Notes under the pieces: generated by a model
The model's input: only the letters and a program-made list of their open reading frames with translations
What the model was told of the DNA's origin: nothing
Databases searched by the model: none
In this document: positions 4,793-28,347 of the stretch, piece by piece
Position numbering within the stretch: the stretch's first letter is position 1
Layout: each line of letters starts with the position of its first letter
Position numbers and translations under genes: made by a program
Assembly (NCBI GenBank): GCA_009602725.1
Contig: WELB01000044.1
Span: 779,476 to 811,142 of the forward strand
Direction of reading: 5' to 3'
DNA: 31,667 nt
Source of the DNA: Spirogloea muscicola
Lineage: Eukaryota; Streptophyta; Zygnematophyceae; Spirogloeales; Spirogloeaceae

Positions 4793-5335
4793 GTGGGATG
4801 TGATACTTGACATTGACTTAAGCACAGGCAAGGTTGAACAGGGAGCTTGACTGATCTCCAGCACATCTACAGGTTGTGCATGGAGGAGGTATTTGCCCAC
4901 ACCGTCTGCGGCAAGTGTCCTCTGCTTCTCCACCTCGTACTCCACTCTCACAAGTCACGTTCTGTGCTTCAAAAGACAAAGAATAGGCTCTCCCAATGGG
5001 GTCGATGGCTGTGAACGCCAGCCCCAAGAGGATGAACAAGGTTCAAAGGGGCCTGTAAATGCAAGCCATGCAACTGTGCAAATGGCCACTTGAGTGCATG
5101 CTCAGTGAAACGTAGTCAGCAGGTCGGCAAGCGGCTGGTAGGGGAATAGAGGCGCCACGCCGAGGCCAGAGGCGGCAGCCAATGCATGGCCTGTTTGCTA
5201 ATGCACGGGAATGCCTGAAAATGCTAGAGCAAGATGATGAGGCACAGACGGCACACCTAAGTGAGTGACCCCGCGGCATTGAAAGAAGCTGAAAGAGGAA
5301 GAAGCAGCTAAATGGGAGGCTCGTCCAGCCCTTCC
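4793..5335. other. Intergenic region with one hairpin repeat, no gene recognised
   Basis: Apart from the hairpin repeat at 4986-5055 I find no coding signal with splice or family support. Confidence 0.3.
4986..5055 (-). repeat. LINE-tail hairpin repeat, minus orientation
   Basis: GGCTCTCCCAATGGGG, then GGCTGTGAACGCCAGCCCC and GAACAAGGTTCAAAGGGGCC: the full reverse-complemented consensus, including the TTCGAACCTTGTTC-like leading block. Confidence 0.75.
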
Positions 5336-5578
5336 ACAGGGGGCGACGGGTGTGAAGGCCAGTCCAGAAAAGGATGAACAAGGTCCAAGGAGAGAAGGCG
5401 AGCGCTGAGCATGATTGGAAAGGGGGGCCAATGCCAGCCAATACATTGTTCAGGCAAACGTAGTGCAAAAGATGGGGCTACATGAAACCAAGCCCTATGC
5501 TAAGGTGGCTGAGGTAACAGGCTGTTGTGACCTTGGTACCCACGAGTGAGCACATCACAAGTCCGACAAGCTAACTTG
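5336..5578 (-). mobile_element. 5'-truncated LINE 3' end (B-type UTR) with hairpin tail
   Basis: Read on the minus strand: the ORF end block (CTCACTCGTGGGTACC, 5533-5550), the UTR blocks CCTTAGCATAGGGCTTGG, TTTGCACTACGTTTGCCTGA and a GGCC-CCCTTCCAATCATGC block, then GGACCTTGTTCATCC and the hairpin. The same block order occurs on the plus strand at 10930-11128, without the hairpin. The junction from B-type UTR straight into the hairpin shows that the hairpin belongs to this LINE UTR too. Confidence 0.75.
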
Positions 5579-8175: not shown

Positions 8176-8470
8176 GGCGCCAAACCACCACCACGGAAGC
8201 CATTAGCCTGGGCTAATATAATGCACGACCAGCACGCTGGTGTATCGCAAGTGCCTGGGAGCCCTGTAGACTCAATGATAGCCGCATTCAATAGCATACA
8301 ATGATGGCTTGCGGGACGCCAGAATGCCCCAAGCTACCCGCCCGACTACGTCGGCGGGCATCGACATGCAGTGCCAGGCAATGGAGGAGGGAAGATGAAG
8401 AAAAAAAGTGCTTGCGCAAACTGAGCATCCCTCTGCATCATTGTTGGTGTGTAGTTTTGTCTTTTGCTTT

Positions 8471-8525
8471 GGATTTGGACATTGTCCATTCTTTTTTGGG
8501 CTGGCTTTGCTTGCCCCCCTTCTCT
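8471..8525 (+). repeat. LINE-tail hairpin repeat, plus orientation
   Basis: GGACATTGTCCATTC, a T run, then GGGCTGGCTTTGCTTGCCCC. It faces the minus-strand copy at 8562-8622, so the two form a foldback with arms of about 50 bp. Confidence 0.75.
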
Positions 8526-8561
8526 CAGGGCGAGCACTTTCTTTCTTCTTGCGCATAGAAG

Positions 8562-8690
8562 GTAGGGGCTGGGAAAGGCCAGCCCAAAAGAATGGACAAG
8601 GTCCAAAGAGCCAAACAGTCCTAAAATTACACAGCTGGACACGAGACTACTGCAGATGGAAGCCTAGTAACCGCGAGTGAGCAGCTACTG
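8562..8690 (-). mobile_element. 5'-truncated LINE 3' end with A-type UTR and hairpin
   Basis: On the minus strand: the ORF end CTCACTCGCGGTTACTAG, then GGCTTCCATCTGCAGTAG, similar to the UTR at 25250, then GGACCTTGTCCATTC and a perfect stem GGGCTGGCCTTTCCCAGCCC. This copy directly links ORF end, UTR and hairpin. Confidence 0.75.
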
Positions 8691-10139: not shown

Positions 10140-10500
10140 GAAGCGAAGAGCTGGCGAGGGCCCCTCGCCAAGAAACAGCTCTGCCAAAAACGGCGATGGC
10201 TGTGTGGCCAGCCCACATAAAATTGAACAAGGTCTGGAAGGGCCGAACGCGCAGAATGTGAAACTACTCTCCGTGACTCCTGCGGATGGACGCTCAACAA
10301 CCTATAATCTACAAATGCAGATTGGAGACCCAGAGGGCTAAAAAGCGTCGCCCTGTCGAAGTTGGGAGGCAGCAGACAAGACGGGGACTGCCCGCAAGTG
10401 CACGCCAGATGCCAAGGAACGCTGCAGAGAGATGGCAAGGCGCATTGCCCCGCCTGCTGTGCCTGCGACTGCAAAGCCATTTCTCTCCTCCCTAAAATGG
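10140..10500 (-). mobile_element. 5'-truncated LINE: ORF C-terminus, 3' UTR and hairpin tail
   Basis: On the minus strand the peptide MRLAISLQRSLASGVHLRA...AASQLRQGDAF (about 10463-10341) matches the C-terminus of the 22462-24498 ORF. It is followed by a mutated ORF end (CTCCAATCTGCATTTGTAG, then ATTATAGGTTGTTGAG), about 70 bp of UTR, CCTTCCAGACCTTGTTC, and the hairpin GGGCTGGCCACACAGCC with its tail GCAGAGCTGTTTCTTGG. The order ORF end, UTR, hairpin is the same as at 24498 and 25248. Confidence 0.8.
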
Positions 10501-16145: not shown

Positions 16146-16284
16146 GACAGAAGACCGTTCGAAGCGCAACGAGGGAAGCCCCATCTGAAGGCACCTCAAC
16201 CACCCACAATTACCGAGAAGGTGGGCTCCACAGAAGCGGTGGCGCGGAGATCGTGGAAACGTAGCAAGCACGGCCAGGTCAACT

Positions 16285-16350
16285 GGTGGCTGGGAGAGGC
16301 CAGCCCAAAGGAATGGACAACGTCTGAAGGAGCCGGAGTGCTAAGGATCC
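16285..16350 (-). repeat. LINE-tail hairpin repeat, minus orientation
   Basis: GGCTGGGAGAGGCCAGCCC, AAAGGAATGGACAACGTC, then TGAAGGAGCCGG: a complete leading block in reverse. It faces the plus copy at 16380-16492. Confidence 0.75.
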
Positions 16351-16379: not shown

Positions 16380-16492
16380 CTTTGGACCTTGTTCAACCGT
16401 CTTGGGCTTTTCCTTCACTGCTACCTCTGTCAATTCTTTTCGGGCTGGCTTTTCACAGCCCTTGTCCCCATTGGGAGAGCCACTCATCTTCA
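16380..16492 (+). repeat. LINE-tail hairpin repeat, plus, with partial second leader
   Basis: TTTGGACCTTGTTCAACC begins a degenerate unit. A good unit follows: TGTCAATTCTTTTCGGGCTG, GCTTTTCACAGCCC, TTGTCCCCATTGGGAGAGCC, ACTC. Confidence 0.75.
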
Positions 16493-19878: not shown

Positions 19879-20049
19879 GAGAGCCGGCGAGGCCCGCAGC
19901 GACGAGCTGTGGCGATGGGCTGAGCAGCCGGCGGCTGCAGCAGCAGGCAGCAGGAGGTACCTCTTCTCTCGGCGTTGCTGGTCCGACTGCGGGGTTACTA
20001 AGCTCCCCTCCGCTGTGGGTTCGTGCATAGCTTCGTGGTTTAGGCGCCT

Positions 20050-20112
20050 CTCGGCTCTTTGGAAGTTGTCCATTCTTTTTGGACTGGCCTTTCACAGCCA
20101 CTGCCTTTGATT
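20050..20112 (+). repeat. LINE-tail hairpin repeat, plus orientation
   Basis: CGGCTCTTTGGAAGTTGTCC, ATTCTTTTTGGACTGGCC, TTTCACAGCCACTGCC. Nearly complete; one stem base (GGACTG for GGGCTG) is changed. Confidence 0.75.
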
Positions 20113-20490
20113 GTAGGAGCTGTTGTGACTGCGGAGTCCGGGGCCAAGGCTGGGGAACGGATGGCGGAGTGGACGGATCAGATGGCCGAAGCCATGGTGC
20201 GCGAGCGCAGCCGCTGCCTCCGAGACCGTCGCTGCACGCCACCTTCGGGACACGCGTCGCCACCCCAACACCCCGAGTAGTCAATGAAAGCCCCCCCCCT
20301 TACGAACTACGGCCCTCATGATTGCGGCACGCCCATGTTGCTTGTCCTGTCAATCTTGGCAGCCATCGCCGCCGCCGTCCGCCCCCGCGGCGCTCCAGCA
20401 GCGCCACCACCACGCTGCCACCATAGGCGAAGTCCTAGCTTGGGACCTCACCCCTCCTCCTCGAGCTTTCGCTGGTGGTATAAGGGCTTG
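20113..20490. other. Unassigned GC-rich region
   Basis: A plus frame (to 20280) and several others are open, but no family is recognised and no splice-supported exon is seen. Confidence 0.25.
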
Positions 20491-20640: not shown

Positions 20641-21092
20641 TCCCTCTCCCTGGCGCTCGCACGCTCAGCGGAGCTGTGCGCACCGCGGCGTAATGCAGGC
20701 TTGCACTCGCTGATTGGAGCGACCAGCACTTCCTGATTGGGGAGGCCGAGTCAAAGCGGCAGAGACAGAAGGTAGTGTTCCAGGAACCCTGGCTCCAGGT
20801 ACCCTGGCTATCTGGGCCTCACCATCCCGCCCTCCAAGTGTGCCGCGTTGTCACCACAGAGCTTGCCGCTCTTCCTCTTGCTGCAAGAGAAGTGCCAGAC
20901 TCCTCCACCTGAGCACCGTCCAAGCTGGGCGTACCTAGACTTGTGGCGGCCGGTGAGCGGCTCCAAGACCAACTAGATCGGTGGCCCACCTTTTAGCTGT
21001 CCAGGACCCCAGCGGACGCAGCAAGCGCCATTACTAACTACTCCGTAGCTGCTTGATTCCATTTGTGCTAGCTAGCTTCAGCGCTTTCCCTG
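20641..21092. other. Intergenic region, no gene recognised
   Basis: It contains a short direct repeat (CAGGAACCCTGGCTC / CAGGTACCCTGGCTA at 20790-20812). No other feature is supported. Confidence 0.25.
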
Positions 21093-21165
21093 GCCCCTTC
21101 GAACTTTGTTTATCTTTTCTGGGCTGGCCTCTCACAGCCACCGCGCTCTCCTGGAAGCGTCTTCT
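21093..21165 (+). repeat. LINE-tail hairpin repeat, plus orientation
   Basis: GGCCCCTTCGAACTTTGTTT, ATCTTTTCTGGGCTGGCC, TCTCACAGCCACCGCGC, TCTCCTGGAAGCGTCTTCTT. Complete with its tail. Confidence 0.75.
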
Positions 21166-21224
21166 TTTGCAGCCCTCGCTCCTATGGTACAAGCCGCTTA
21201 GTTTTCTAGGCTGGCATTTCCGCA

Positions 21225-22214: not shown

Positions 22215-22404
22215 TGGCCCATTCGGACCTTCGTCAAATATTTGGACCGGCTGTTCACAGCCCTTGCCCCTTTCTGGAGAGCCATTTCTCTTGTTTTCAC
22301 TCCTCCAGACTTCTCACAGCCCTCGCCCCATGTGACAGAGCTTACTCTCTTTCCGTGGCTGGCCTACTACATTCTCCGCTCACTTACTCGTGGTTATTAA
22401 GTTG
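22215..22404 (+). mobile_element. LINE 3' end with hairpin repeats upstream
   Basis: CGGACCTTCGTCAAATATTT and GGACCGGCTGTTCACAGCCC, then CTTGCCCCTTTCTGGAGAGC are a hairpin unit, followed by a partial one (CTTCTCACAGCCCTCGCCCC, 22309). The frame then ends SLTRGY-stop (CACTTACTCGTGGTTATTAA at 22380-22400), the conserved LINE ORF end. Confidence 0.65.
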
Positions 22405-22461
22405 ATTCATCCTACCGGGCTTAACTACCTCTTTCCCTGCAGCGAGCAACTCAGATACTCA
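22405..22461 (+). mobile_element. 5' part of a resident LINE 3' end, split by the next element
   Basis: CTTTCCCTGCAGCGAGCAAC then TCAGA matches CTTTCCCTGCAGCGAGCTAC / TCAGA at 25196-25220, which encodes the SFPAASYSD of a LINE C-terminus. Its continuation (GATCTGATGTTGCTCACTC) is found only after 24603, so the 22462-24602 element interrupts it. Confidence 0.65.
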
Positions 22462-24498
22462 GAGGCGGTTGTCCACGGGGTGCGGGCTTCCCTCGACTTG
22501 CACCCGGAGTGGGTCGTGCTGGCGGTGGACGTCCGCAATGCCTTAAAATGCGTCGACCGCGCCACAGTCGCCGAGGAGCTCCGTGCGGCCTTCCCCACCC
22601 TGCTGCCGTTCTTTCGGCTGGGCTACGGCCAGCCCAGTGATCTGCTATGGCGGCATGGAGCCGGAGGGGTGGAGGTCCTTCAGTCTTCCACGGGCACGCG
22701 TCAAGGGGACCCGCTGGCGGGGTATTTCTTCGCGCTGGCCCACGACCGCGCCCTGAAGGCCACGGCAGCTGCTCACCCGGGCGTCCTCATGCCAACGTAT
22801 GCCGACGACACCTCCCTGGTCGGGCAACCAGACGAGGTCCTGGCTGCCTTCGCCACGCTCGAGGAGCAGCTGAAGGAGATCGGCCTGGACATCCGAGGGT
22901 CGAAGTGCAGCGCCTGGTCCCCCCAAGGGTTGCCAGCCCTCCTCCGCCTTCCCTCCGGCTGTCAGACACCTGCCGGGGGCCTCACCCTCCTCGGGGTTCC
23001 ATTGGGCTCACCTGCCTTCGTGGACGAGCAGCTGCGCAGCAAGCTGCAGGAGCACCTCCAGCCGGCGGCCCGCCTCCCTGAGCTGCATGATATGCAGCTG
23101 GGGCTTGCCATGCTGACGCGCAGCATAGCCCACCGTCCCCTGTACCTGGCTCGAGCCCTCCCCCCCTCCCCGGCGACGCAGGCCGCCTATGCAACTTTCG
23201 ATGCAGGTATCCTGGCCTGCACAGCGGCCCTGGTCCAACACCCGGCCTTCCTGGAGACGCCGGCTGCTGTGCACCAGGCCTCCCTGCCTGTGAGCCGAGG
23301 GGGTCTGGGCTGCCGCCCGCTGGCTCGTGCCTGCCGGGCAGCACACCTGGGGAGTTGGGCGCAGGTTGCGGCTTCGGTGGCTCAGCGTTTCATCCGGCAT
23401 GGGGGTCGCCTCCTGGAGCAGGCGGCCGCGGACGTGGAGACTGGCACGCTGCCTTTCCAGACGGCTCTCCGCTCAGCCCGGGATGAGCTGCTTGCGGATC
23501 ATCCCGCCCTGGTGCCACGGGCCGTCCCGTTCGCTCACCTCGCGCGCACGGCCGACCTGCGGGCCCAAGCTCGCTGCATGGCGGAGGTAGATGCGGCGTC
23601 TTTCTCCACGGCGCTGGGGCTTTTGCCTCCAGCCGACCTCCGGGGGCGCGCGCGACTGCTCTCGGCGTCCTCACCAGGGGCGGCTGCTTGGCTGTCGGCT
23701 CTGCCGATCCACGACGCGCTCCGGATGCCGGACGCCGCATTCCGAACGGCGGTGCACCGCCTCCTCGGCCTCCACCCACCATGCCTAGGTGGAGTACAAC
23801 AGTGCGAGTGCGGCGAGCGCAGCCCGGACGCGGCGTCACTGGCAGCTCACATGCTCCGATGCGCACGGGGAGGGGAGCGGACCGGCACACACGACCTGCT
23901 CCGGAACGCGATGTTTGGCATATTTGTCGAAGCCGGTTACACTGTGGCGCTGGAGAACTCCAGCATCATGCCTCTGACTGCTGGGGCGGACGGCCGCCTC
24001 CACACCCGGCGCGCCGATCTCGTCGCTAGCGCGCTCGGCGGGGGGCCTCGGCTCATTGCCGACGTCGTCACAACGGACTCCTTGGATTCCAGGAGCGCAA
24101 CACGCTCGGCGGAGGAGGCGGGCTACGCCGTCCGCCAAGCGGCCGCCGCAAAGGAGCGCAAGTACTCAGATCACCCGGTAGGCGACGAGTTTATCCCACT
24201 CGCCGTCGACGTACACGGCGCCTTTGGCGCCAAATGGCTGGACCTCCTTCACCGCCTTGCGCGGCGAGCAGCGGCCCGCCGCGACGGGCAGCAAGGCGAG
24301 CAGCCTGGCTTCCATGTCGCCGGGTCCCTCGCCCAAGTTTACCGGATGCGCCTGGCCGTCTCTTTGCAGCGGTCCCTAGCTTTTGCGGTCCACTTGCGCG
24401 CAGGCCGCGCTCTGGCGGCGGCCTCCGGCTTCCGTCAGGGCGACGTCTTTCCGCCTGCTAGCTACTCAGATTTGCATCTACTGACGAGAGGTTACTGA
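22462..24498 (+). CDS. LINE ORF (5'-truncated): reverse transcriptase, CCHC finger, RLE endonuclease
   Basis: A 2-kb open frame without stops. RT motif A is VLAVDVRNALKCVDR (catalytic Asp at 22528), motif B STGTRQGDPLAGY (about 22690), motif C TYADDTSL (about 22795-22820), with GSKCS after it. The fingers and RT motifs before A are absent, so the copy is 5'-truncated. A knuckle follows: CECG (23803), HMLRC (23848) and a following THD. Then comes a restriction-like endonuclease: RADLV (Asp at 24016), IADVVTTD (Asp at 24061) and KERKY (24151), followed by PLAVDVHGAFG. This RT-CCHC-RLE order is that of R2/NeSL/HERO-type LINEs. A further conserved C-terminus (RLAVSLQRSLAFAVHLRAGR ... LLTRGY) recurs in other copies. 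The frame is open upstream to a GTG at 22390, but that part is other sequence. Truncation should make it inactive for retrotransposition. Confidence 0.92.
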   Translation, partial: EAVVHGVRASLDLHPEWVVLAVDVRNALKCVDRATVAEELRAAFPTLLPFFRLGYGQPSDLLWRHGAGGVEVLQSSTGTRQGDPLAGYFFALAHDRALKATAAAHPGVLMPTYADDTSLVGQPDEVLAAFATLEEQLKEIGLDIRGSKCSAWSPQGLPALLRLPSGCQTPAGGLTLLGVPLGSPAFVDEQLRSKLQEHLQPAARLPELHDMQLGLAMLTRSIAHRPLYLARALPPSPATQAAYATFDAGILACTAALVQHPAFLETPAAVHQASLPVSRGGLGCRPLARACRAAHLGSWAQVAASVAQRFIRHGGRLLEQAAADVETGTLPFQTALRSARDELLADHPALVPRAVPFAHLARTADLRAQARCMAEVDAASFSTALGLLPPADLRGRARLLSASSPGAAAWLSALPIHDALRMPDAAFRTAVHRLLGLHPPCLGGVQQCECGERSPDAASLAAHMLRCARGGERTGTHDLLRNAMFGIFVEAGYTVALENSSIMPLTAGADGRLHTRRADLVASALGGGPRLIADVVTTDSLDSRSATRSAEEAGYAVRQAAAAKERKYSDHPVGDEFIPLAVDVHGAFGAKWLDLLHRLARRAAARRDGQQGEQPGFHVAGSLAQVYRMRLAVSLQRSLAFAVHLRAGRALAAASGFRQGDVFPPASYSDLHLLTRGY

Positions 24499-24602
24499 GA
24501 GTTCGCTTACTGCTGTCTCAGTCCTTAGCACTCCGACTCCTTCAGACCTTGTCCATTCTTTTGGGCTGGCCTCTCCCAGCCACCAGTTCATCTGGCCGCG
24601 CT
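22462..24602 (+). mobile_element. LINE copy with RT-RLE ORF, 3' UTR and hairpin
   Basis: The ORF above plus about 100 bp of UTR: CTTCAGACCTTGTCCATTC, TTTTGGGCTGGCCTCTCCC, AGCCACCAG, ending near GGCCGCGCT. The UTR matches 25985-26100. It is inserted into a resident LINE end (22405-22461 / 24603-24704); if it is removed, the flanks rejoin to match 25196-25250. Confidence 0.8.
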
Positions 24603-24704
24603 TGCTCGATCTGATGTTGCTCACTCGTGGGTACTGAGCTTCCCTCTGCATCGTCTATGTATTTTGCATTTTTTAGTGTAGTCCTTCTTCCGGCTCCTCT
24701 TTCG
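24603..24704 (+). mobile_element. 3' part of the resident LINE: ORF end and A-type UTR
   Basis: GATCTGATGTTGCTCACTCG, TGGGTACTGAGCTTCCCTC, TGCATCGTCTATGTATTTTG and TAGTGTAGTCCTTCTTCCGG are nearly identical to 25217-25312. The UTR breaks off after CGGCTCCTCTTTCG, where the next LINE fragment begins, before reaching its hairpin. Confidence 0.75.
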
Positions 24705-25386
24705 TCGAACTCCTCCATAATGCCCATCCAGCTGGGCGCGGATGGCCCACCCCATACACGACGCACCGACCTGGTCGCCATCCCGCCCGGCGGCGGTCCC
24801 CGCATCATCGCTGCTATGGTGACAACTGACTGCATCGACTCCGCCAATCCCACCAGATCGGCGTCGGTTTGCAGGGCACGCGGTCGGCCAGGCGGCCCAG
24901 GGCAAGGAGCGAAAATATGCTGATCACCCGGTTGGGAATGGATTCGCGGCCCTGGCGATGGATGTACACGGGGCTTTCGGCAGCCGCTGGCTGGATCTCC
25001 TTCAGCGGCTTGCCCGCCAGGCCATTGACCGGCGGCCGGGTCTGCCAGGGGCGCCCGGCTTCAACGCCGCCGGTTCGCTCGCACAAGTCTTCCGCATGCG
25101 CCTGGCCGTATCGCTTCAACGCTCCCTTGCCCACGCCGTCCACACGCGAGCAGGCCGTGCTATGGCCGCCGCCTCTGGGTCTCGGCGGAGTGCCTCTTTC
25201 CCTGCAGCGAGCTACTCAGACCTGATGTTGCTCACTCGTGGGTACTGAGCTTCCCTCTGCATCGTCTATGTGTTCTGCAGTGTTTTGTAGTGTAGTCCTT
25301 TTCCGGCTCCTCTTTCTTTGGCTTTGGACATTGTCCATTTTCTTTGGGCTGGCTTTGCCAGCCCCTCTTCTCCATGGGCGCGCACT
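24705..25386 (+). pseudogene. LINE fragment: RLE domain, C-terminus, 3' UTR, hairpin; frameshifted
   Basis: It starts at NSSIMPIQLGADGPPHTRR and continues TDLVAIPPGGGPRIIAAMVT. A frameshift or small deletion around 24865-24875 follows, then GHAVGQAAQGKERKYADHPV, then MDVHGAFGSRWLDLLQRLAR to SYSDLMLLTRGY-stop at 25248. The first endonuclease block (I-A-A-M for I-A-D-V) has lost its Asp. The 3' UTR (25249-25340) leads to GGACATTGTCCATTTTC and a perfect stem-loop GGGCTGGCTTTGCCAGCCC. It is a dead, 5'-truncated relative of the 22462 copy. Confidence 0.85.
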
Positions 25387-25423
25387 TCTTCTGCCGTAAT
25401 TGCAGCTTAGCTCGTATTTTGAA

Positions 25424-25497
25424 CCCTTCGAACCTTGTCAATTCTTTACGGGCTGGCTTCTCACAGCCCTTGCCCCCATTGGGAGAGCCACTTCTTC
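25424..25497 (+). repeat. LINE-tail hairpin repeat, consensus-like copy
   Basis: CCCTTCGAACCTTGTCAATTC, read as CCCTTCGAACC + TTGTCAATTC, then GGGCTGGCTTCTCACAGCCC, TTGCCCCCATTGGGAGAGCC, ACTTCTTC. It is the best example of the full unit. No LINE ORF end precedes it. Confidence 0.85.
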
Positions 25498-25539
25498 ATC
25501 CTACACCCGTTCTGACATAGCGCTTTCCCCTGCCCTGGA

Positions 25540-25600
25540 TGGCTTGGCTGTTCACAGCAAATTGCCCCTTCTGGGAGAGCCACTTCTTCCTCCGTACCAG
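25540..25600 (+). repeat. Partial LINE-tail hairpin repeat
   Basis: TTGGCTGTTCACAGC, AAATTGCCCCTTCTGGGAGAGCC (given as AAATTGCCCC and TTCTGGGAGAGCC), ACTTCTTCC. The tail is intact and the leading block missing. Confidence 0.65.
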
Positions 25601-25902: not shown

Positions 25903-26097
25903 GCGGCCTCCGGTTTCCGTCAGGGCGACGTCTATCCGCCTGCTAGCATTTCGATGTGCACTTACTGACTAGAGGTTACTGAGAGCCCCCTTGCTGCCGT
26001 CTTAGCACCTAGTACCTTGCTTTTTGCGCCATCCGGCTCCTTCAGACCTTGTCCATTCCTTTGGGCTGGCTTCTCACAGTCACCAGTCTATTTGGCA
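25903..26097 (+). mobile_element. 5'-truncated LINE 3' end, same subfamily as 22462
   Basis: GCGGCCTCCGGTTTCCGTC, AGGGCGACGTCTATCCGCC, TGCTAGC, ACTGACTAGAGGTTACTGAG match 24418-24498 almost base for base. The UTR (CCTTCAGACCTTGTCCATTC, CTTTGGGCTGGCTTCTCACA) matches 24536-24580. Only the last 80 or so bp of the ORF are present. Confidence 0.8.
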
Positions 26098-26099
26098 GC

Positions 26100-26160
26100 G
26101 CTGTAGTCGTGAGAGGCCAGCCCAAAGGAATGGGCAAGGTGTGAAAGTCTGAAAGGGACG
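26100..26160 (-). repeat. LINE-tail hairpin repeat facing the previous one
   Basis: GTGAGAGGCCAGCCCAAAGG, AATGGGCAAGGTGTGAAAG. With 26046-26090 it forms an inverted repeat with arms of over 40 bp and a short spacer. Confidence 0.75.
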
Positions 26161-28063: not shown

Positions 28064-28313
28064 CTAAGATGGGGGTGGCGGCATAGGGGGTGGCGGAGAT
28101 GGGGGTGGCGGTGATGGCGATGGTGGTGGCGGCATAGGGGGTGGCGGAGATGGTGATGGTGGTGGCGGGAAGGGCGGTGGTGGTGATGGCAGTGATGGCG
28201 GCGTCTTTGGTGGCGAAGGTGGCGGGCGTGGTGAAGGTGGTGGCCGCGGTGGTGGCGGAGGCCGCGGTGGTGGTGGTGGTCTTGGTGGTGGTGGAGGTCG
28301 NGTGGAGGTGGGC

Positions 28314-28347
<34 letters not shown>

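Follow-up and report, generated by a model that had tools for sequence, protein, structure and literature searches.

A hairpin module at the 3′ ends of several LINE families in Spirogloea muscicola, and the nature of its stand-alone copies

Introduction

The stretch of DNA analyzed here (the window: 31,667 nt of the Spirogloea muscicola genome, contig WELB01000044.1, positions 779,476 to 811,142) carries many copies of a short hairpin unit, some at the 3′ ends of long interspersed nuclear elements (LINEs) and others seemingly on their own. The question it raises is whether one sequence serves both the LINEs and a partner family of short interspersed nuclear elements (SINEs), as a first-pass annotation made from the letters alone had proposed. 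This unit, hereafter the module, is probably the 3′-terminal recognition element of a swarm of LINEs from the R2 group, with a putative C-terminus of the restriction-like endonuclease (RLE) type, at which target-primed reverse transcription would start. Judged by their sequences, the stand-alone copies look like broken-off LINE ends and not like members of a separate SINE family.

The module and its LINEs

The hairpin unit is confirmed as a real repeated element. The word CCTTGTCCATTCTTTT, with up to three mismatches allowed, matches 13 times in the window, against a mean of 0.29 and a maximum of 2 in 100 shuffles. An iterated nhmmer search seeded with four window copies gives 31 units at E ≤ 0.01, on both strands; the first-pass annotation had put the number at about 25 to 30, and each of the ten places it had named (24540, 25327, 26046, 8562, 10190, 5336-5392, 25424, 16424, 21093, and 4986) has a profile match. 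Seventeen distinct LINE ends were used to build a model, which after one iteration over the window and 13 other genome stretches finds 86 copies at E ≤ 1e-3, with 31 falling in the window, and none in reversed sequences; this count is not usable as a genome-wide density, because L003-L007 were chosen at listed exact-motif sites, L062 and L063 are all N, and L004, L009, L010, L060, L061, and L064 are partly N. In the genome as searched (153,112,186 bases in 471 contigs, parts of them N), GGGCTGGCNTTTCACAGCC occurs 1,009 and 954 times on the two strands, and the two-block pattern TTGTNNATTCN{3,7}GGCTGGN{4,8}CAGCC occurs 5,103 + 5,154 = 10,257 times in the 153 Mb, with no occurrence in the backward control of either. 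No Rfam family reached its gathering score in the window, and the module is undescribed in the literature searched, of which few full texts were gone through.

The LINEs were collected with the C-terminal 332 residues of the open reading frame (ORF) at 22390-24498, which gave at least 123 matches in the genome (121 of 22,614 first-look candidates scored). The 3′ ends of 40 of the 123 listed matches were sampled, in groups labelled F1 to F10, and the module is present at 39 of these 40 ORF ends; the remaining one (L027) has a shortened untranslated region (UTR), and L036 has its module behind a nested insert. In at least eight families the module lies 36 to 90 nt 3′ of the ORF; it is about 66 nt long and LINE 3′-terminal, and is followed by a CTT-rich tail. 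Within the window, ORF ends are found 36 to 68 nt upstream of the units at 24540, 25327, 26046, and 8562, and a tblastn match to LINE protein stops 89 nt upstream of the unit at 10190, all five having been placed after LINE ORFs by the first-pass annotation.

Conservation of the module

Eight groups in three superfamilies (F1, F1b, F2; F3, F4, F5; F7, F8) were compared, with F6, F9, and F10 left out. Between superfamilies (21 pairs), identity is 68% for protein and 38% at four-fold sites, 51% for the UTR from stop to module (shuffled 50%), and 72% for the module (shuffled 58%). Within superfamilies (seven pairs), the corresponding values are 83% and 66%, with 66% for the rest of the UTR (shuffled 56%) and 89% for the module (shuffled 59%). 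The module outlasts its neighboring sequence, being still 72% identical while four-fold sites are at 38% and the remaining UTR at the shuffled level, and the comparison suggests selection on it. Together with the 39 sampled ORF ends, this bears out the earlier description of the unit as a conserved 3′ end common to several LINE families with reverse transcriptase and RLE-type features. We also noticed that module types track protein groups and that the loops are group-specific. A conserved 3′-terminal sequence with a stem-loop, as in stringent-type LINE 3′ ends, is found.

Predicted RNA structure

When ten modules were folded singly, the five from superfamily B and F9 were predicted to form a two-tier hairpin more stable than their shuffles (z −2.17 to −3.66), with an inner stem GGGCTGGC/GCCAGCCC and an outer stem of TTGTCCAT with ATGGGCGA. 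Across 35 aligned modules, 74.7% of the cells are paired, against at most 52.8% in slid controls, with the structure derived from one row. The outer blocks pair better with each other than when they are shuffled, none of 200 shuffles doing as well. On this alignment the inner stem is kept by sequence identity, and the predicted outer stem is offered as a fair proposal.

A GGAC/GTCC hairpin at the module's 5′ edge was dropped, as it is broken in families F8 and F9 (by eye). An F4 module in L041 has its third block interrupted by a short foreign piece at a pyrimidine run.

Tails, chains, and insertion sites

The 8 nt immediately 3′ of the module in 39 LINE ends are 91% pyrimidine, and TTC, CTT, or TCT is present in 38 of the 39. 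For the 37 LINE tails with a readable flank, 15 enter a same-orientation LINE within 15 nt and 2 an opposite one, while reversed flanks give 0; opposite-orientation matches within 25 nt number four, two of which (L023 and L042) hit a library entry with a nested insert. Same-strand module pairs 40 to 200 nt apart are likewise in excess: there are 22, whereas shuffles give 7.0 and none of the 500 reaches the observed number. Tail-to-tail pairs (16 against 10.7, equalled in 84 of 500 shuffles) and head-to-head pairs (8 against 6.9) show no excess in the sample, and inverted pairs were therefore dropped as a general feature.

In L082, a truncated F8 copy follows the tail of another after 5 nt and is flanked on either side by GCCCT, a layout that points to serial insertion at a tail. 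In L083, an F8 copy lies within a B-type module. Template jumping, which is known for R2, could yield the same chains, and serial insertion and template jumping may both act.

Some side observations concern individual junctions. In L087-L091, five of six opposite-strand pairs are tail to tail and 10 to 125 nt apart, and L088 and L089 have both arms and the spacer in common, that is, a repeated palindromic block. At about 1560-1620 of L011 (C33), a LINE 3′ end lies within an 18S rRNA fragment, where GCCAGCCCCTGTCTTC is followed by the 18S sequence AGTAAGGATTGACAG. Two 18S fragments, in L012 and L014, come from separate contigs and carry an identical stretch of foreign sequence joined at one and the same point upstream of GGTGGTGCATGG, a word of the 18S; this is a block duplication or else an insertion with site specificity. 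The 3′ part of the 18S in L011 and L014 reads as green-algal, of a prasinophyte type, and a dinoflagellate host, considered at first, was rejected on reading the 18S.

Stand-alone copies

Among the 86 copies, an ORF end is preserved no more than 105 nt upstream in 23, and another 7 match LINE UTR in register, with 0 in reversed controls. A profile of the ORF end scores 5 bits or more 30 times upstream of modules and 0 times in reversed sequence. Family F8 matches that are at least 97% identical and reach the 3′ end comprise 15 copies with 14 distinct starts (40 of 4,289 candidates scored), at query positions 830, 923, 1004, 1008, 1031, 1034, 1041, 1055 (twice), 1076, 1083, 1087, 1128, 1139, and 1140; the remaining matches mostly start at 680, which is the query's own break, and three start at 689. 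A fixed 3′ end with scattered 5′ starts is the picture of 5′ truncation.

Three of the individual copies called stand-alone and SINE-like by the first-pass annotation do not support that label. The copy at 25424 is an F8 tail as in L054, the module at 21093 is from a LINE family in which longer copies include the ORF end, and the one at 4986 has LINE-like sequence and an ORF end upstream, as read. The genome was also searched with the latter two copies, and the outcome gave no support to a SINE origin. As a separate observation, pieces of the F8 tail of about 20 to 25 nt are clustered beside longer copies in L077 and L078. An empty site for the insertion at 21007 was sought in C106, which is similar up to the break only and does not resume after it.

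Classification of the host LINEs and known systems

An intact LINE ORF of 1,517 aa is present in L059; against Pfam it has RVT_1 alone above cut-off and no apurinic-endonuclease domain at E ≤ 1, and RVT_1 is detected in eight of eight family members. A profile of eight proteins searched against PDB gave three matches, all to R2 retrotransposon proteins (E 2.1e-6, 2.8e-6, and 4.5e-4), with nothing else at E ≤ 1; single LINE proteins gave no R2 match there. On this PDB profile match, the module-bearing LINEs are provisionally placed in the R2 group. Cys/His fingers were read by eye at the N-terminus, and the C-terminus has, in the alignment, a CCHC motif and residues that we take to be RLE-like, with no Pfam RLE family matched. 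The copies are dispersed and not confined to the R2 site of 28S rDNA (the 28S itself was not looked at). RandI/Dualen LINEs are defined by an apurinic endonuclease together with an RLE, and the intact ORF, having no apurinic-endonuclease domain, falls outside that group. No HDV-like ribozyme was found among four weak matches on the 5′ side of the intact LINE in L059.

The nearest tested parallel for the mechanism is R2Tg, for which the terminal 65-67 nt of the 3′ UTR suffice (PMC12222951). The LINEs described here share with R2 (R2Tg, R2Bm) the reverse transcriptase profile, the size of the 3′ element (about 66 nt here), and, as read, the layout of one long ORF with N-terminal Cys/His fingers, reverse transcriptase, and a C-terminal CCHC followed by RLE-like residues. 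They differ in being dispersed rather than restricted to 28S rDNA and in their CTT-rich tail, and the R2Tg element is a pseudoknot whereas the module is predicted as a plain or two-tier hairpin.

The SINEX elements of Chlamydomonas have tails in common with RandI LINEs and end in short 3′ repeats, (CTTT)n for SINEX-2 (PMC3747384), so that a green-algal LINE 3′ end in common with short elements has a precedent; unlike that system, no apurinic-endonuclease domain is seen in the intact ORF and no SINE family was found here. Zebrafish ZfL2 protein strictly binds its own 3′ stem-loop (PMC4176376), which speaks against a public tag in zebrafish L2 LINEs, and UnaL2 has short 3′ repeats (PMC3747384). 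These stringent-type elements resemble the present ones in a 3′-terminal stem-loop followed by short repeats, but they are of the L2 clade with a different sequence, and the module described here is common to several families. Entamoeba EhLINE/EhSINE are RLE LINEs with short partners as well (PMC3747384); those partners are SINE-like families, whereas truncated LINEs account for the cases tested here.

Mechanism and alternative explanations

As a recognition element, the module would be bound by the LINE protein in its own RNA through the inner hairpin GGCTGG/CCAGCC, which in some families the putative outer stem would extend. Target-primed reverse transcription would begin at the CTT-rich tail, paired with a nicked pyrimidine-rich target. 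Early stop of synthesis would be common and leave 3′ pieces, the shortest of about 20 nt, as the 'stand-alone' copies, while old tails would seem to act as targets, or as template-jump start points, for new copies, because a tail terminates every copy; same-orientation chains would result.

Several observations weigh against this reading. The five superfamily A and C modules are predicted to be no more stable than their shuffles (z −1.69 to 0.02), the covariation score of the outer stem in the 35 aligned modules is matched by 23 of 500 shuffles, and own outer blocks pair better than swapped ones at p 0.023 with 22 representatives and at p 0.14, a weak result, with all 35. RNAalifold retains four pairs, none with compensatory change, and the inner stem has no such change; of the RNA-level constraint suggested earlier, the persistence of the stem stands, mostly via sequence identity, and the shift in closing bases is therefore no demonstration of it. 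The target-site duplications that the first-pass annotation suggested looking for are clear in L082 only (GCCCT) among 13 flank pairs read by eye, and in none of the other twelve. No LINE sequence was recognized in 56 of the 86 copies with a small LINE library, the ORF-end profile also matches 12 times 100 to 350 nt downstream of modules, which is expected in a LINE-rich stretch, and the F8 start survey scored only the fraction of candidates given above.

The 56 unmatched copies would also suit a true SINE family living beside the LINEs with a borrowed LINE 3′ end, as would the same 5′ start of 21007-21175 and L096 at 88% identity, a slight excess of A-box-like words (65 of 86 copies; shuffle mean 53.1, maximum 63), and the precedent of SINEX with RandI. 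Such a family would show many copies with one shared 5′ end, A and B boxes for RNA polymerase III, and a 3′ end in common with a LINE, and it is the last that is found. The unmatched copies are not necessarily non-LINE, because the library is small and the copy at 4986 goes unmatched in spite of its LINE-like upstream sequence. None of 128 upstream links, as read, brings non-LINE copies to one common start, and the F8 starts are scattered. B boxes occur in 7 of 86 copies against a shuffle mean of 10.4, A and B boxes in register in 3 (shuffle mean 1.3, maximum 4), and a tRNA scan of the window found none. In the sample, the two-copy case of 21007-21175 and L096 is the exception to the lack of an abundant shared-start family; L096 is the one other place with that start among the 40 of 1,660 candidates scored, the likeness continues past the tail, and the pair may be a composite or duplicated block. 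We consider a separate SINE family quite unlikely.

Tail exchange by recombination, gene conversion, or template switching, rather than selection for recognition, could also make modules alike, and the direct contact of different families in chains would ease it; it fits poorly with module types that track protein groups (89% identity inside a superfamily, 72% from one superfamily to another) and with group-specific loops, and is judged unlikely. Conservation of the module at the DNA level, where it might serve as an insertion target, would agree with the nearly invariant stem sequence and with new copies at old tails, but the junctions are at the tail and not the stem, and the stem arms stay complementary over the 35 sequences by the above-mentioned one-row structure, so this explanation seems very unlikely.

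The recognition-element reading may be carried further. The module could be a public 3′ tag, and the tail that the families share the preferred target, with LINE families using each other's RNA and building mixed same-orientation chains, each insertion seeding the next; we regard this as possible but doubtful. The mixed tail-to-body chains make it testable whether an RLE LINE protein works on its own RNA exclusively or on any RNA with a common tag. A conserved LINE 3′ end is ordinary in kind and useful as a series, and the tail-to-body chaining is interesting and unexpected. The series provides a compact natural set of R2-type 3′ recognition elements of about 66 nt, from families with saturated synonymous sites, that lend themselves to parallel testing in the in vitro reactions established for R2, and it advises caution against naming short module copies SINEs.

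Features of the window

Features of the window that concern the module and its LINEs
Feature	Positions	Strand	Remarks
LINE family F1 ORF, 3′ part, 702 aa to stop	22390..24498	+	reverse transcriptase (RVT_1, E 3.2e-9), CCHC motif, RLE-like C-terminus; 5′ part missing or broken
F1 3′ UTR, variable part	24499..24535	+	
F1 conserved 3′ module	24536..24601	+	inner stem GGCTGG 24564-24569 / CCAGCC 24576-24581
F1 module blocks	block 1 TTGTCCAT 24549-24556; block 3 ~24592-24601	+	
F1 short pyrimidine-rich tail (TTGCT)	24602..24606	+	directly abuts next LINE fragment
5′-truncated F3-type LINE fragment (last codons and UTR)	24607..24700	+	abuts F1 tail, same orientation; boundaries by eye
F3-type LINE fragment, C-terminal codons and UTR	24718..25325	+	95% to L058; 5′ boundary by eye
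3′ module and tail of F3-type copy	25314..25395	+	profile match
Module called stand-alone in the first-pass annotation; 5′-truncated F8 end	25405..25497	+	F8 tail as in L054; 5′ boundary by eye
Additional truncated module copy	25535..25593	+	weak match, 17.2 bits
Module 3′ of F1-type ORF end	26032..26106	+	
Module 3′ of LINE ORF end	8541..8615	-	
Module tail-to-tail with the 8541..8615 module	8470..8545	+	
Module 3′ of LINE ORF end	10172..10246	-	
Module	5328..5392	-	profile match
Module called stand-alone; upstream sequence LINE-like	4981..5055	-	
Module called stand-alone; cut near its own 5′ edge	16423..16490	+	cut point by eye
F1-type module, head-to-head with the 16423..16490 module	16268..16339	-	
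Module with LINE UTR upstream	20049..20123	+	
F10 module and UTR	21007..21175	+	unit common to L096 from same 5′ point

Next to the F1 tail, 24608-24677 repeats 25219-25288. GGTGGC-rich tandem repeats of several periods lie at 28068-28346 of the window.

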